Shown here piece after piece: positions 8,926 to 15,981 of a DNA stretch of 64,000 bases. Source of the stretch: Nocardioides marinus (GTDB lineage Bacteria > Pseudomonadota > Alphaproteobacteria > Rhodobacterales > Rhodobacteraceae); assembly GCA_019801415.1 (NCBI GenBank), contig JAHVJD010000005.1, forward strand, positions 1 through 64,000, in the 5' to 3' direction. The notes beneath the pieces were generated by a model, which worked only from the letters and a program-made list of their open reading frames with translations, did no database searches and had not been told where the DNA came from. Made by a program: the position numbers and the translations under genes. Within the stretch, counting starts at the first letter, position 1; the number at the start of each line of letters is the position of its first letter.

Positions 8926-9068
8926 CGCCCCGCCAATCTTGCTGGGCGCAGGCCTTTGCAAACAAGCATTCTTAGCGCCGCGAGGGCGTCTGCGCCCTCT
9001 TTCGTAGTCCGCCAGCCCGCGGATTGCGGCGCCCTGACATATATTCGAACTGCAGGAGCGATCGCCCG

Positions 9069-12000
9069 ATGGTACATCACTGGCAACAGGTTCTAAGCGA
9101 TCATTGGGGCATCACTGCTGCTCTGACACCGCTGAACGGTGAGTATGACCAGAATTTTCTGGCGCAAGGGGAGCATGACTATGTCATGAAGATCATGCGG
9201 CCAGACTGCCAGGCTAGTTTCATTGATCTGCAGTGCCGTGCGCTTGAGCACATCAGGACACAAGCCCCCGACGTCCACGTTCCCGCAGTCTGCAGGAGCA
9301 TCCGCGGCGACATGTTCTTGGCCGTAGCGGACGAGGGTGGGGCTGAGCGGCTGGTCTGGGTCATTGAGAGGCTTCCAGGGAAGACTTTTGCCGAGTTCAA
9401 GCCGCAGACCGATGGACTGATGTTTGATGTGGGGCGCGCCGTCGGGCAAATGGGGCTTGCCTTATCCGGTTTCGCCCATCCCGCGCTTGAACGTGACTTC
9501 AAGTGGAACCTAATGCAATCGGATTGGATTCTTGATTGTCTAGACATGGTTGAGGGTCACGATCGGCGCGCGCTCCTCGAATGTATCGTCGCGGAATTCT
9601 CCGCCGTTTTACCGCTTCTGAGAGATTTGCCTAACGTGGCAATCCACAACGATGTCAATGATTACAACATATTGGTCCGCGGCTCGCTGAGTGAGCCACC
9701 GCGCGTTTCCGGCCTGATCGACCTCGGCGACATGTGCGCCGGGCCGCGCATCTGTGACCTGGCGATTACTTGCGCCTACATGGTTCTTGGTCAGGAGAAC
9801 CCCGAAAAGGCGCTGCAATCCGTAGTGGCTGGATATCATAGCATCTGGCCCCTCACCGAGGCAGACGTTGATCTGCTGTGGCCGCTGCTGCGGATGCGGC
9901 TGGCGGTCAGCGTCGTCAACTCGGCGCTAATGGCCAGTGAATATCCAGATGATCCGTATGTTGTGATTTCACAGAAACCCGCTTGGCAATTTCTCGAAAA
10001 TCCCAGCGTCAGCGGCGACCTGATCAAGGCCCGCCTTCGTGCGGCCTGCGGCCTGCCGGTTACCGGTGCAGCCCCGCGCATCCTGTCTTGGCTCGACCAT
10101 CAGCGGGGCCAGTTTGCACCGGTGGTGGGTAAGCCCCTGGACGGAATGGCGATGCGCAGCCTGTCGGTGGAGCGCTCGGTCATCCCGCGCGACCCGTTTG
10201 CAGCCGAAACCGAAGCGATGGCGGACGGCCAAAGCAGCGAGAACATCTGGCTAGGATACTACGGCGAGCCTAGGTTGATCTACACTGGTCCTGCCTTTCA
10301 AACCGGGCCGTGGAAGGCCTCCAACCGCCGCACGGTGCATCTGGGGATAGATGTCTTTTGCGCTGCGGGAACGCAGGTGTTTGCCCCGGTTCCCGCGACG
10401 GTTCACAGCGTAGAGAACCGCTGCGGCCGCCCGGGCCAAGGGGGCGTTGTCGTCCTGCGTCATGAAACGCCAGATGGGGATCCCTTCTTTACCCTCTACG
10501 GGCATCTCGACCCAGAGGTCTGTGGCCGTCTGAAAGCAGGTCAGCAGATCAAAGAGGCTGAGGCCTTTGCCCGGCTGGGCGATGCGGCGCAGTGTGGCGG
10601 TTGGCACCCGCATGTGCATTTCCAGCTAATACTCAGCACCGAGGGCATAGCTGAACACTGGCCCGGCGCCGCTGACCCGGACGAACTGGGCCTTTGGGGA
10701 GCGCTCTCTCCGAACCCGGCCGCGCTTCTTAACCTGCCGGACGCCGACATGGTCTACCAGCCAGCCGACAAAACCAAGCTTTTGGCGGAGCGAGCGCGCT
10801 GCTTTGGCGAAAACCTGAGGCTCAGCTACGCCGATCCTGTGATGCTGCTGCGCGGCTGGCGCCACCACCTGTTCGACGAATGGGGGCGGCCCTATCTGGA
10901 CGCCTACAATAACGTCCCGCACGTCGGCCACGCACACCCGCGCATTCAAGCGGTCGCGGCGGACCAACTGCTGCGCATGAATTCCAACACCCGCTACCTG
11001 CACCCCGCGCAGGTAGCTTTTGCGGAAAAGATCACTTCGAAACTGCCTGAATCGTTGTCAGTGTGTTTCTTCGTCAACTCTGGTTCTGAGGCCAATGAAT
11101 TGGCCCTGCGCTTGGCTCGCGCTGCAAGCGGTGGGCGCGATATGGTCACTCCCGATCACGGCTATCACGGCAATACAACGGGAGCGATTGACCTGTCAGC
11201 CTACAAATTTAACGCCAAAGGCGGCATCGGACAAAGTGATTGGGTGCATTTGGTTGAGGTCGCCGACGATTACCGCGGCCGTCATCGCCGCGAAGATCCG
11301 GACCGGGCCGAAAAATACGCGGCGCAGGTGGACAAGGCCTTGGCCGCGATTGCAGACCGCGGCGGTAAACTGGCTGGTTTCATCGCCGAGACGTTTCCAA
11401 GCGTCGGCGGGCAGATAATCCCGCCCAAGGGCTACCTGGCCAAAGTCTATGCTCGGATTCGCTCCGCGGGCGGCATTTGCATAGCAGATGAGGTGCAAAC
11501 CGGGCTTGGAAGGCTGGGAGACTATTACTTCGGCTTCGAACAGCAGGGCACCGTGCCAGACATTGTTGTGCTGGGCAAGCCGATCGGCAACGGACACCCG
11601 CTGGGTGTTGTGGTTACGACCCGGGAGATCGCCGACGCCTTCGCCCGCGGACCGGAGTTTTTCTCGACCTTCGGTGGGTCAACCCTGTCCTGCCGCATTG
11701 GCAAAGAGGTGCTGGACATCGTCGACGATGAAGGTCTGATGAAGAACGCACAGCATATGGGCACCCAATTACTTGCGGGACTGCGGACCATGGCGGAGCG
11801 GCACCCCCTGATCGGGGATGTGCGAGGTTTCGGACTGTTTATTGGTGTTGATCTGGTAACGGACCGCAACAGCCGCACGCCTGCTACGCAGGCTGCGAAC
11901 TACGTTAAGAACCGGTTGCGAGAGCACCGCGTATTGATCGGGTGTGAAGGACCTGCGGATAACATTCTGAAGATCCGCCCACCGCTCACCGTGGATGACC

Positions 12001-12098
12001 AAGCGGTTGATATGATATTGACCCTTCTGGACCGAGTACTCGACGAAGCAGAAAACCTCTGCGGAAAGACAGGTTCCCCCCACGCCAATATTTCCTAG
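9069..12098 (+). CDS. Three-part protein: APH-type kinase, M23 peptidase domain, class III aminotransferase
   Basis: A 1009-residue fusion. Residues about 25-290 form an aminoglycoside-phosphotransferase/hydroxylysine-kinase-type kinase with catalytic loop HNDVNDYN (near 192) and metal motif IDLGD (near 217). Residues about 405-525 are an M23 (lysostaphin-type) domain with both zinc motifs intact, HLGID and HVH. Residues about 580-1000 are a class III PLP aminotransferase with IADEVQTGLGR and the PLP lysine in VLGKPIGNGHPLG (near 836). In animals, hydroxylysine kinase and the ammoniophospholyases (AGXT2L1/L2) are the separate relatives of the two outer domains. That suggests phosphorylation of an amino alcohol followed by elimination of phosphate and ammonia. 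I chose the ATG at 9069, preceded by AGGAG, over an upstream TTG. Confidence 0.88.
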   Translation: MVHHWQQVLSDHWGITAALTPLNGEYDQNFLAQGEHDYVMKIMRPDCQASFIDLQCRALEHIRTQAPDVHVPAVCRSIRGDMFLAVADEGGAERLVWVIERLPGKTFAEFKPQTDGLMFDVGRAVGQMGLALSGFAHPALERDFKWNLMQSDWILDCLDMVEGHDRRALLECIVAEFSAVLPLLRDLPNVAIHNDVNDYNILVRGSLSEPPRVSGLIDLGDMCAGPRICDLAITCAYMVLGQENPEKALQSVVAGYHSIWPLTEADVDLLWPLLRMRLAVSVVNSALMASEYPDDPYVVISQKPAWQFLENPSVSGDLIKARLRAACGLPVTGAAPRILSWLDHQRGQFAPVVGKPLDGMAMRSLSVERSVIPRDPFAAETEAMADGQSSENIWLGYYGEPRLIYTGPAFQTGPWKASNRRTVHLGIDVFCAAGTQVFAPVPATVHSVENRCGRPGQGGVVVLRHETPDGDPFFTLYGHLDPEVCGRLKAGQQIKEAEAFARLGDAAQCGGWHPHVHFQLILSTEGIAEHWPGAADPDELGLWGALSPNPAALLNLPDADMVYQPADKTKLLAERARCFGENLRLSYADPVMLLRGWRHHLFDEWGRPYLDAYNNVPHVGHAHPRIQAVAADQLLRMNSNTRYLHPAQVAFAEKITSKLPESLSVCFFVNSGSEANELALRLARAASGGRDMVTPDHGYHGNTTGAIDLSAYKFNAKGGIGQSDWVHLVEVADDYRGRHRREDPDRAEKYAAQVDKALAAIADRGGKLAGFIAETFPSVGGQIIPPKGYLAKVYARIRSAGGICIADEVQTGLGRLGDYYFGFEQQGTVPDIVVLGKPIGNGHPLGVVVTTREIADAFARGPEFFSTFGGSTLSCRIGKEVLDIVDDEGLMKNAQHMGTQLLAGLRTMAERHPLIGDVRGFGLFIGVDLVTDRNSRTPATQAANYVKNRLREHRVLIGCEGPADNILKIRPPLTVDDQAVDMILTLLDRVLDEAENLCGKTGSPHANIS

Positions 12099-12644
12099 AT
12101 GAACCGTGAAACCTACCGCTTTGCAAAAAGCCGGACCAAACAGCTCAAAGACACTTTTTGAAAGGGAACTCCCATAGGTCCTAACAGACCAAGCCTCCTC
12201 GGAATACGTCGGCTATTTAATATTTAATGAGCGCGCATCCCAACACGCCAGTTGAACCTGCACTGGCAGGTTTTTACACAAACCTTTGGCCAGAAAACGA
12301 ACCACCGTTCACACACCACCTTTCGTCGCCGCCATGTGACTTTCGCGGATGATGTCTGTCCATGTAGAGAACTGGGAAAATCGAGCGCAAACCCGCCATG
12401 TGGCGATACGGCAAAAGCAGCGTTGCATAGATGGGCATGGGGTTGATCGCCAAATGACGGCAGCCAGCCCCGAAGCAGAAATGGTGCTCGACCTGGTCCG
12501 GCGCCCCATCTCCCAGCAGGTAGGGCGGAGAGCGGTCTTTCGCTGCGGACGGCGTCAACGACCGCTTTGCATGCTTAGGCAACATGCTTTACATAGCCAC
12601 TATAGCTTCCGGCTGCGGTGCTGAATTAGAGCTACGGAGTCTTT
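12099..12644. other. Gene-poor stretch before the Hsp70-like unit
   Basis: The first part is AT-rich (around 12215-12235, TTTAATATTTAATG) and holds no gene. Minus-strand frames between 12274 and 12585 contain a peptide with QVEHHFCFGAG but no start, ribosome site or confident family match, so it may be an eroded gene end. The last 60 bases must carry the promoter and leader of the downstream two-gene unit; GGAG at 12636-12639 serves its GTG start. Confidence 0.35.
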
Positions 12645-14078
12645 GTGAACACATCATCATCGGAAACAACATCCTCGGATCTACCCAATGCGCTGGCCGA
12701 ACTGCGCGCCTTGATCCAGAGTCGCAAGCTCACGAAGGAGCAGTTCGAAACATCGGAATTCAAAGCTCTTTGGAAAAGCGTCGGATCCTATCTTCACGAC
12801 GATAACCCCTCTGTAGTTTGGACAACATTCGCAATGCTTGGACGCATGGCTGCAATATCAAAACCAGCCGAGCGTCTCGTAGAGCCGTTGCTGGGCGAGA
12901 GGCTAGACGCAGCTCTCCCTGAATTTGTTCGCCTGCCGGATGGTGAGGATCGTTATTACCTTGCAAGAAGCCTTCAGGGCGGCAAGCGAAGCGAAATCAT
13001 CGCCATTTCTTATCGGGAACTTGCCGAGGAAGAAACGGCCGAGACGGCGCGCCGCGTTTGGGCCAGTATCGCCGGTTCTGGAGGCGCCTCTTTGACAGCG
13101 TTCTTGCAGCGTTTGAACAACGAGATTGAGACAGTCGCTCGAGAGAACGATCTGAGACCGGATGCTCTCTGTCGGCGAATACGCCGCATCGTTGCTTCGA
13201 TCGACGACTTCGTTGCAACGGTCGACGTCGACGCGGGGGATGAACTCGGCAAGCAGCTAAAAGTTCTTTTCGTTGGCCATTTGCCGAAGTCAGGCCCCGA
13301 CGATCGCATTCTGCGAGAGGAGGCATGCCAAGATTTTCTTTCTGCCATCCAGAAGATCGTGAGGCTTAACTTCAGCGCACGCACGGACCCAGAAAGCTAC
13401 AAGATCATCGACGCAATGCGTGGATGGTGGCGACCCGCGTCTCCGTCTCAGGACTTTGAGGGCGCAGTGCGAAGTATTGCGCGCCTTGGAGTCGAGACGC
13501 TTCTCATGTTTGCGAAGCAAGGTGTGATGAACAAGCCTCTTAGGGACGCACTGGTCACTTCGGTCAGCGCGCGATCGATCAACAACATGGCCAAAGAGTT
13601 TGCCGCGCGTACGCCGAGCCTCGACCAGTCCATCGCATATTGGTTCGTGAACGGCGAAGAGCCGAAGGAGGAACGCTCGGTTCGCGGCGTTGAGGCGCTT
13701 TCGGAAGCAAAACTGGACGAGTATGTCGGCCGACTTTTGATCGCGCTGGATCTCCCTGAGCTTCAGGCAACCGCGGTTGAGCAGGCTCTGAACGATGTGA
13801 AGGACATCATGGCTGCAGAGGGTGACCTCTTGGAGGGGGCGCTGAAGCGAGGTGCGCTTGCGACTCAATGGGCGCGTGCAGTCGCCCGTACGCGCCGCAT
13901 CGCCCTCAGTCCTCAACGCTCAGAGCTGGTGAGATATGATCCAGCCGCACACGTTGGAGAGGACGATCTAAGAATTGGGAGTGAGGTTCGCGTCCTGACA
14001 CCGGGTGTCGTCAAAGAAGGTCGAGGCGGTGTCAGTGTGATATTGATTAAGGCAGAGGTTGAGAACAGCAATGGATAA
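12645..14078 (+). CDS. Unrecognised helical protein paired with an Hsp70-like ATPase
   Basis: A 477-residue protein I do not recognise. The GTG start at 12645 follows GGAG by 5 bases. It appears almost entirely alpha-helical and soluble: no signal peptide, no membrane segment, many charged heptad-like stretches (for example TAFLQRLNNEIETVARENDL). Only the last 30 residues look like beta strands (IGSEVRVLTPGVVKEGRGG). That ending weakly recalls the beta-domain end of GrpE, the Hsp70 nucleotide-exchange factor, but the similarity is too short to assert. Its stop overlaps the ATG of the Hsp70-like gene by 8 bases, implying coupled translation and a physical partnership. Codon use is less GC-extreme than the flanking catabolic genes, consistent with acquisition by transfer. 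Confidence 0.75.
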   Translation: MNTSSSETTSSDLPNALAELRALIQSRKLTKEQFETSEFKALWKSVGSYLHDDNPSVVWTTFAMLGRMAAISKPAERLVEPLLGERLDAALPEFVRLPDGEDRYYLARSLQGGKRSEIIAISYRELAEEETAETARRVWASIAGSGGASLTAFLQRLNNEIETVARENDLRPDALCRRIRRIVASIDDFVATVDVDAGDELGKQLKVLFVGHLPKSGPDDRILREEACQDFLSAIQKIVRLNFSARTDPESYKIIDAMRGWWRPASPSQDFEGAVRSIARLGVETLLMFAKQGVMNKPLRDALVTSVSARSINNMAKEFAARTPSLDQSIAYWFVNGEEPKEERSVRGVEALSEAKLDEYVGRLLIALDLPELQATAVEQALNDVKDIMAAEGDLLEGALKRGALATQWARAVARTRRIALSPQRSELVRYDPAAHVGEDDLRIGSEVRVLTPGVVKEGRGGVSVILIKAEVENSNG

Positions 14079-15675
14079 AGCAACTGCGAGAATTGTACTT
14101 AAGAGCCTTCTCGAACGGTTCGACAAGTCCTCCGACGTTTTTCTCACATCCGTCGAAGCAGAGTCCTTGCGCGCTATCCTCGATCTGGAGCCAGCCGCTG
14201 TCGTCGATGCTCCAGCGGTACCAACAGTTGAACCGGCTTTCGAAATTCCCGTTATCACATGTCCAACACCGGAAGATATCGATGAGGATCACCTCATGTG
14301 TCTGGACTTCGGAACGTCATTTTCTAAGGCATTCGCGTGTTCAGTCGACGACACTGACGACGTGCCTGAGCTATTTCCATTGGCTTTTGGAACGAACGCC
14401 TTTGGCGATCCGGAACTCTTGCTTCCATCGGAGCTCTTCGTTGACGGTGGCGAGCTTTACTTGGGGGGTGCAGCGAGGGCCCACTTTAACGCCGTAGAGG
14501 CGACACAAGATCGGCTGATCGACAGTCCAAAGCAGTTCATTACGCTCACCAAAGACGTGACGGATCTACACAGGCGCAAGCTAGAGGAGGCCCAGGATCC
14601 TTCGGGCACCCTGACGCAACGCGACGCGCTGGTGTTGTATCTTGCGCACTTGAACCTTCGCGCTGAGCAGGCGCTGCGCGGGCAGGGCCTTAGCGTTGAC
14701 CTGAAACGCAGATATGCACACCCCGCTTGGACGCCGGATCATTTCAAGGACAATAGTGAGGCAATGCGTCGGATCATCGCCGAGGCGATCGCAATTGGAA
14801 GATGCCGTGGCGACGACCTTTCCAGCAATCTTTCGCTAGAGAAGGCGTGCAAGATTGTCCAATTGGCACGCAAGGCCAAGGATGACGAACTGCCATTTGG
14901 GTTGATTGCCGACCCCGTCCTCGAGGCCACAGCCGCGGGCGCTGGTGCTCTCATAGGCACTCCCGCGCAACGTAGGGTGCCGTACGTAATTCTGGATATC
15001 GGCGCCGGCACGACGGATGTCGCCGGATGCATTTGCGTGAACAACCCCAGCAAAGATCGCGTCACGGTGGCCGAAGTTACGCCAGCGGCGCGTGCGATAA
15101 ATCAAGCTGGTAACATCATAGATAACGCCCTGCTAAAGAAGATCATGGACAAAAGCGGCCTCGCCGATGGCACAGCTGAGTATAGGCGCGTTCAAGCTTC
15201 TCTGAAGCGCACCATCCGCGGGGACAAAGAAGTGCTCTTTATGGATGGCGCTCTCAGTGTTGGCTTGGTGACGGGGGACGTAGTCGACATCGAACTGGAC
15301 GACTTTCTTGAACATCCGATCATCAAAGGGCTTTTCAAGAAGATCACGGACCTTGCAATTGATGCGGCGTTCTGTGTTGCTGGCGACCAAAATACCGTGA
15401 ACGTGACAGCCACGGGCGGGGGAGCTGGCCTTCCAGTTGTCAAGGCGCTGGACGGGGTTTCGATTGAACGGGACGGAAGGCGGGTTCAACTGTCATTGGC
15501 CGAACCCATGCCGTATGAGTTGAGGGAAACCTATCCGCAACTGGTCGATCCGTATCCTCAGGTTGCTGTCGCCGTTGGTGGTGCCTTGCCTAACCTGCCT
15601 GCGCAGGTGAAAAGCATCAAGGAAGGCATCTCGGTTCCCGGAAAACGATATCTCGCCCCAATGTATAAGTCCTGA
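14071..15675 (+). CDS. Hsp70/actin-fold ATPase without a substrate-binding domain
   Basis: A 534-residue protein with the Hsp70/actin ATPase fold. Phosphate-1 motif CLDFGTSFSKAFA is at about 77-89, phosphate-2 motif VILDIGAGTTDVAG near 307-320 and the adenosine motif ATGGGAGLPVV near 447-457. A roughly 75-residue helical, proline-rich extension precedes the ATPase core. The protein ends about 80 residues after the adenosine motif, so the beta-sandwich and lid of DnaK are absent; it cannot be an ordinary chaperone. It could be a remodelling or switch ATPase working with the overlapping upstream gene. I chose the ATG at 14071, inside the upstream gene, over a TTG at 14059. No dnaJ or grpE accompanies it. 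Confidence 0.85.
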   Translation: MDKATARIVLKSLLERFDKSSDVFLTSVEAESLRAILDLEPAAVVDAPAVPTVEPAFEIPVITCPTPEDIDEDHLMCLDFGTSFSKAFACSVDDTDDVPELFPLAFGTNAFGDPELLLPSELFVDGGELYLGGAARAHFNAVEATQDRLIDSPKQFITLTKDVTDLHRRKLEEAQDPSGTLTQRDALVLYLAHLNLRAEQALRGQGLSVDLKRRYAHPAWTPDHFKDNSEAMRRIIAEAIAIGRCRGDDLSSNLSLEKACKIVQLARKAKDDELPFGLIADPVLEATAAGAGALIGTPAQRRVPYVILDIGAGTTDVAGCICVNNPSKDRVTVAEVTPAARAINQAGNIIDNALLKKIMDKSGLADGTAEYRRVQASLKRTIRGDKEVLFMDGALSVGLVTGDVVDIELDDFLEHPIIKGLFKKITDLAIDAAFCVAGDQNTVNVTATGGGAGLPVVKALDGVSIERDGRRVQLSLAEPMPYELRETYPQLVDPYPQVAVAVGGALPNLPAQVKSIKEGISVPGKRYLAPMYKS

Positions 15676-15870
15676 GGCTGGCATTACATACAAAACACGG
15701 GTCACTTCTGTTTTTTTTGCCCCTCTTTTCCGGGCGTTTAGTTCTAGGTGGCTCGTTGTACTAATTTGCGACAAAAGTGATGAATAGCTGCAAAGGGCCA
15801 AGAACGGTCATGCCCCGCGCCAAGCTCGAATGGTAGCTAAGGGCCGGTCCAGTTCAGAAGGGCGACCACA

Positions 15871-15970
15871 GTTCGCAACTTTGCAGCGGCAGCTTCCTGC
15901 GCTTCGCCGACATCGGTGCCAAGCGCGGCATCGCCTTCCCCAACTGGGCAACTCGAAGGTCCGCTCTAGG
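15871..15970 (+). repeat. Dispersed repeat, copy A
   Basis: This stretch, with words such as GCGCGGCATCGCCTTCCCCA and CTCGAAGGTCCGCTCT, matches 42474-42560 in the same orientation with many substitutions. Neither copy has a credible open frame, so this is an intergenic repeat family or two eroded copies of one element. Together with the T-run near 15709-15716 it fills the 306-base gap between the Hsp70-like gene and the convergent hydrolase gene. Confidence 0.45.
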
Positions 15971-15981
15971 AAAATTACAGC

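Follow-up and report, generated by a model that had tools for sequence, protein, structure and literature searches.

We analysed a 64,000-nucleotide stretch (hereafter the window; positions 1 to 64,000 of contig JAHVJD010000005.1, assembly GCA_019801415.1) from a genome of the Rhodobacteraceae, and describe two overlapping genes, A and B, at positions 12645 to 15675. B is predicted to encode an Hsp70-type ATPase that lacks a substrate-binding domain, and A a partner protein with a probable relative of GrpE at its end. The features of the locus are as follows.

12645..14078, + strand: gene A, PDC-M61A-type; open reading frame (ORF) of 477 residues, start GTG at 12645, stop ending at 14078
13827..14063, + strand: C-terminal partner domain of A (residues 395-473), GrpE-like, from the partner-profile match
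14071..14078, + strand: 8-bp overlap of A and B, read from the sequence and equally long in the second copy (G208)
14071..14295, + strand: N-terminal extension of B, about 75 residues, preceding the ATPase domain, whose first phosphate motif is at D79
14071..15675, + strand: gene B, PDC-M61B-type; ORF of 534 residues, start ATG at 14071
15827..15976, no strand assigned: dispersed intergenic repeat in the downstream flank, outside the pair

The sequence GGAG lies at 12636-12639, upstream of the GTG of A. In the list of ORFs B starts at TTG 14059 (538 residues), and the in-frame ATG at 14071 gives 534 residues and an overlap of exactly 8 bp. A second copy of the pair, on contig C10 of genome G208 from another genus of the Rhodobacteraceae, has an equivalent ATG and likewise overlaps by 8 bp. 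The 8-base overlap with a 477-residue protein described in the first-pass annotation of this DNA therefore stands with the ATG start. The two copies are 75% identical in A and 80% in B. Comparison by blastn of the window with a 10,308-bp locus of the G208 contig (L002) gave a single aligned block, window positions 12634-15675, at 76% identity, and the ratio of nonsynonymous to synonymous substitution (dN/dS) between the copies is 0.12 for A and 0.10 for B, at a synonymous divergence (dS) of about 1.24. Because the pair is the sole aligned block and dN/dS is about 0.1, the comparison indicates that A and B are two real genes, maintained as a pair under purifying selection.

The pair also differs in composition from its surroundings. 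The G+C content at third codon positions (GC3) is 0.59 in A and 0.60 in B, as against 0.61-0.83 in 17 other ORFs measured in the window (nearest 0.61), which agrees with the more moderate codon composition noted at first reading. The flanks of about 545 bp upstream and 306 bp downstream contain short ORFs only and were judged non-genic. They had been described as gene-poor and repeat-bearing; the first part holds on both sides, and the second on the downstream side, where the segment 15827-15976 has many matches across the 21 genomes of the genus and further matches in 17 plasmid records (Phaeobacter/Tritonibacter), with a repeat length of about 80-150 bp. The upstream flank gave few short matches in the genus genomes.

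To characterise B, 44 B-like ORFs were gathered (those of the window, G208 and a locus termed L041, plus 41 from 40 regions among 59 matches in the order of the L041 genome), and 32 of these, with 12 left out, were used for the alignment and family profile. Residues D79, G81 and T82 of the first phosphate motif, D309, G311, G313, T314 and D316 of the second, and the adenosine motif GGG at 449-451 are invariant in all 32 aligned relatives. The same is true of K154 and E285, which we take to correspond to a catalytic Lys and a conserved Glu of DnaK; the region of E285 is included in the alignment of the family profile to Hsp70 structures. Searched against the PDB, the profile matches Hsp70 nucleotide-binding domain structures with a best E-value of 1.2e-19, and the best 60 of its 134 matches are all Hsp70-type, with no ParM or MreB among them. 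Pfam HSP70 matches 25 of the 32 members at E up to 0.01, the window protein being one of the seven without a match. B has no family above cut-off in Pfam or NCBIfam, and weak Pfam matches to DDR and MreB, below cut-off, were read as the common actin fold and set aside.

No more than 31 residues follow the last invariant glycine of B, G503, and B consequently lacks a substrate-binding domain. At the other end the first motif begins at residue 79, which confirms an N-terminal extension of about 75 residues. The helices predicted there, 3-20 and 27-36, score best in an AlphaFold2 model that was otherwise too poor for use (three sequences; mean predicted local distance difference test score, pLDDT, 34.7). 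All three nucleotide motifs, the missing DnaK substrate-binding domain and the extension had been claimed from the letters of the DNA, and each is borne out. The conserved motifs and the profile matches thus identify B as an Hsp70-type nucleotide-binding domain with its nucleotide motifs kept and no substrate-binding domain, and we infer that it has ATPase activity.

Both proteins match the models of PDC-M61, a candidate system of PADLOC-DB 2.0.0 (PDLC04727-04731). The PDC-M61A model matches A over residues 59-474 at 6.4e-36 and its G208 counterpart at 2.4e-38, and PDC-M61B matches B at 5.7e-83. With both models matched and the genes adjacent in equal orientation, the pair is, by these models, PDC-M61, which overturns the earlier remark that no named system has this composition. 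PDC-M61 is a candidate label only, and no mention of the name was found in the literature searched. PDC entries are described, in the available part of PMC11811056, as unpublished candidate systems, several of which coincide with the published Septu, Dodola and Lamassu; 'PDC' is absent from the main text, as available, of the 2022 PADLOC server paper (PMC9252829). The M61B model alone is not specific for the pair, because it also matches ATPases with a short partner or none. By its predicted anatomy we file the pair as working in the manner of an Hsp70/exchange-factor switch, outside the DnaK chaperones.

A has no family above cut-off in Pfam or NCBIfam, and a weak Pfam match to DUF885 fell below cut-off. 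Its first 370 or so residues are unclassified, with no convincing PDB match (best E 0.55) and a helical look in an AlphaFold2 model too poor for use (two sequences, mean pLDDT 40.7). The C-terminus proved more informative. Short genes encoding proteins of 130-318 residues lie directly upstream of 16 of the 42 sister B genes, and 11 of these overlap B by 4 bp; in one case, L121, the overlap with the called B frame is 436 bp, probably because the B start was called too far upstream. A profile was built from 15 of these partners, with A excluded, and searched against 3313 ORFs. The 15 partners match by construction; the two A proteins come right after them, the window A through residues 395-473 at 3.8e-5 and the G208 A at 4.4e-5. 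The PADLOC M61A models in turn match 2 of the 15 partners (best 3.6e-4), and hhalign of the A tail against the short partners gives P 1.5e-5. These comparisons indicate that the last 80 or so residues of A are akin to the small proteins whose genes immediately precede those of some B-like ATPases, a kinship that is a new finding here.

The same domain is probably related to GrpE, the nucleotide exchange factor of Hsp70, as moderate evidence suggests. Against 177,635 PDB sequences the partner profile had five matches at E up to 1, of which GrpE was the best at E 0.045. A 17-row core alignment (the 15 partners and two A tails) aligned colinearly with 20 GrpE proteins over 114 columns in hhalign (P 1.2e-4, probability 55), whereas one reversed and five column-shuffled GrpE controls gave P of 0.15-0.81. 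The earlier description of the end of A as faintly like GrpE therefore gains moderate support from the profile comparisons and none from curated models, where no match rose above cut-off. The genome that carries A also encodes an ordinary GrpE.

The spread of the pair is patchy. Among 21 genomes of the genus B occurs in one, and among 394 of the family in two, the window's own genome being counted here and below. Three were reported for the family, and one (G082) was dropped because its match to B (8e-4) lies on the opposite strand of an ORF read by eye as SecA. Full-length B was found in 1 of 385 genomes of a class sample and 1 of 398 of a phylum sample (1e-12), the window's own in both. At E up to 0.001 the class sample had matches in 44 of its 385 genomes; those listed, apart from the window's own, reach no more than 189 of the 588 model positions (best 1.6e-7). 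They read as other actin-fold proteins and were dropped, and a match at L040 looked, by eye and from its neighbours, like FtsA. These class and phylum rates are weak, because full-length B-like ATPases occur in 30 of 200 genomes from the order to which the L041 genome belongs, up to five per genome, yet the two samples showed the window's only; either the draw included few genomes from this order, or the search was uneven at its first look. A search of 145 genomes from the phylum to which the L040 genome belongs gave no match, but the controls were silent too, so that absence is not shown. In a scan of genome contigs, six loci were found among the matches listed, L041 alone being near full-length to B, and scans of viral contigs gave one contig, the same record as the G208 contig.

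At the window site, the other genomes of the genus have upstream matches about 70% identical to the neighbouring gene, and short downstream matches, the best of 306 bp. The GrpE proteins of the two genomes (G000 and G208) are 66% identical, compared with 75% for A and 80% for B; GrpE is one fast protein, and the gap is no proof of transfer. The contig carrying the second copy is 37,505 bp long and also appears as IMGVR_UViG_2920089447_000004. It encodes a tyrosine integrase, a serine recombinase and, directly upstream of A, a Mutator-family transposase, together with two ParB-like proteins, a WYL protein, an Snf2 helicase, DUF4391 and type III restriction Mod and Res; beyond the restriction genes lie prophage tail genes by eye, one of which was scanned and has no Pfam family. 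Together with the counts in genus and family, this contig agrees with the prior suggestion of a horizontally spread ATPase pair. A WYL protein, an Snf2 helicase (PADLOC HKD+Snf2), DUF4391 and type III Mod/Res stand in one row at L035 (11227-18067) and L036 (15-2396).

The sister B-like ATPases have other surroundings. In an unrooted IQ-TREE phylogeny of the 32 B proteins, the window and G208 proteins fall together with five ATPases to one side of a branch with support 100/99, on which FastTree agrees. The partners of those five are 257-318 residues long with an extra N-terminal domain that looks like a winged helix by eye and has no Pfam family (best PDB E 0.37). Eight of the 42 sister B genes, all with a partner, have nearby both a gene for a beta-barrel protein (BBP2_2 in Pfam) and one for a ParA/CpsD-like ATPase (AAA_31 in Pfam) (L106, L107, L109, L115, L119, L126, L129 and L131, counting L107, the source of the query). 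Twelve others, all without a partner, have nearby a gene closely related (67-100% identity) to one histidine kinase (L094, L096, L098-L101, L104, L105, L113, L116, L118 and L130, counting L094, the source of the query). We take the BBP2_2 and AAA_31 neighbours to mark a polysaccharide-export setting, 'CpsD-like' being a reading by eye. At L092 (4853-10634) a partner gene and its ATPase gene from the sister set are flanked on one side by a DUF3363/relaxase-like gene and on the other by a phage-type integrase gene. Because distant members adjoin membrane-barrel/ATPase or two-component genes, the ATPase family is not defence-specific; B-like ATPases work in several settings, and any specific link to defence would be confined to the M61 branch.

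Taking these results together, we favour reading the pair as a mobile switch of PDC-M61 type, driven by ATP and built from two genes, and most likely an anti-phage defence carried on mobile DNA; we assign this a probability of roughly 0.55. A would be the dedicated partner of B. Its C-terminal domain may dock on B in the manner of an exchange factor and set or read the nucleotide state of B, while its N-terminal domain of about 370 residues would replace the substrate-binding domain of Hsp70, sensing an infection-related cue, acting on a target, or both. The output is most likely conformational, because no catalytic effector domain was recognised in A or B; a phage or host protein could be sequestered, remodelled or used as a platform for assembly. 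As to role, anti-phage defence appears the best candidate, at somewhat better than even odds, favoured by the integrase, transposase and type III restriction-modification genes of the G208 contig, and accessory regulation of envelope or stress comes second. Defence is nonetheless likely rather than proven, because distant B-like ATPases have other neighbours and 26 of 42 lack a partner gene. The observations of the first-pass annotation are thus confirmed overall, and its interpretation as a horizontally spread ATPase switch, such as a phage-defence or stress system, is partly supported.

Several results weigh against a mobile defence switch. Only two full copies of A with B were examined; the genes stand together in both, and this co-occurrence does not carry over to the distant B genes, where none of the 16 upstream partners is a full M61A, 26 genes have no partner at all, and non-defence genes adjoin. 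Neither A nor B matched any plasmid record searched, and B matched no phage record. On the G208 contig some 7.5 kb separate the pair from the WYL gene, and the restriction genes are more distant still. In the window, Pfam assigns the ten neighbours scanned to transport, metabolism and regulation, and the eight scanned with PADLOC include no defence gene; the sole neighbour with PADLOC matches, an ATP-binding cassette (ABC) transporter (mad3, mad8, AriA, PDC-M25A), was read as giving ABC-ATPase cross-hits. The exchange-factor part is affected as well: A and the 15 partners have no Pfam GrpE match above cut-off, and subsets of the core compared with GrpE gave P 0.0023 for the short partners, 0.22 for the longer partners, 0.09 for A alone and 0.04 for the A tail.

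These last figures bear on an alternative that is compatible with defence, namely that the C-terminal domain of A is an unrelated adaptor sharing a short motif and B a nucleotide-dependent scaffold with no exchange factor. The missing curated match, a PDB E-value of only 0.045, and the values for A and the longer partners taken alone all suit it. We nevertheless consider it doubtful, given the colinear 114-column match of core and GrpE, which none of the six controls approached, and the adjacency of the partner gene to an Hsp70-type gene, a place that would suit a GrpE.

A horizontally acquired Hsp70/GrpE-like module that controls a host process, as an accessory envelope, polysaccharide or stress regulator with no defence role, is less probable again, and we regard it as unlikely. 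The polysaccharide-export setting, judged by eye, at 8 of 42 sister genes and the histidine kinase relative beside 12 of 42 point towards it, as do Hsp70-type polysaccharide regulators described in the available parts of studies on Myxococcus (PMC5544727) and cyanobacteria (PMC9239167). The 100/99 branch of the unrooted tree, however, sets M61 together with its nearest sister group apart from the groups with those settings, no relatives of those neighbours lie within 3 kb of B in either M61 copy, and the patchy spread and the G208 contig suit defence better. The remaining proposal, a maintenance or counter-defence module of mobile elements (a partition-like actin-fold ATPase with an adaptor, or an inhibitor of host defence), could draw on the two ParB-like genes, the recombinases and the genes read by eye as prophage tail genes on the G208 contig and on the sister unit at L092, but is improbable given that the best 60 of 134 PDB matches of B's family profile are Hsp70-type and not ParM or MreB, that the repeats at the pair are short, in two or three copies, and form no array, and that the plasmid and phage records searched gave no match.

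This interpretation offers an unpublished candidate defence system a testable mechanism, that of an ATPase with an exchange-factor-like partner. If it is true, a chaperone cycle without its peptide-binding domain can be reused as a signalling or immune switch. The partner comparisons tie M61 to a wider family of Hsp70 ATPases without substrate-binding domains, in which the partner proteins may hold the specificity. More tentatively, and with the odds somewhat against it, M61 could represent the branch that is mobile and serves immunity within a modular switch family made of an Hsp70 ATPase domain and a GrpE-like partner. Such a family would have discarded the peptide-binding domain and moved specificity to the part ahead of the GrpE-like tail. 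That part would amount to little in one group, to a small added domain in the sister group (perhaps a winged helix, judged by eye) and to a large sensor or effector domain in M61. Were this so, the exchange-factor chemistry of a chaperone would have become a switch that senses infection.

The pair has partial parallels among known systems. With Hsp70/DnaK and GrpE it shares a nucleotide-binding domain with its motifs and an adjacent gene encoding a partner with a GrpE-like end; it differs in lacking the substrate-binding domain, in the large extra domain of the partner and in the presence of a separate GrpE in the genome. No J-domain partner was found among the ten window neighbours scanned, the rest of the genome not having been searched for one. 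The GAP1-N2 GTPase-centred conflict systems carry Hsp70 and GrpE in about 14% of neighbourhoods, a subset of which has a second Hsp70 without a peptide-binding domain, as given in the available part of PMC7159879; theirs centre on a GTPase with further genes, whereas no GTPase occurs among those ten neighbours. CnuD of type III CoCoNuT, which has a predicted defence context, couples an Hsp70-like domain to a helical domain of HEAT-like type, but is described with a substrate-binding domain, a degenerate Walker A-like motif and McrBC partners (PMC11090510, available part), whereas B has no such domain and intact motifs, and no McrBC is among the ten. StkA of Myxococcus xanthus resembles B as a specialised DnaK-like regulator of one cell process; it is a negative regulator of exopolysaccharide (PMC5544727, available part) and bears on the sister groups rather than on M61. 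The available part of a Myxococcus Hsp70 paper (PMC8265645) contained no precedent consisting of a nucleotide-binding domain only. Elsewhere in the window, positions 9024-12098 encode a 1024-residue protein that combines a phosphotransferase (APH) domain, an M23 peptidase domain and a class-III aminotransferase.

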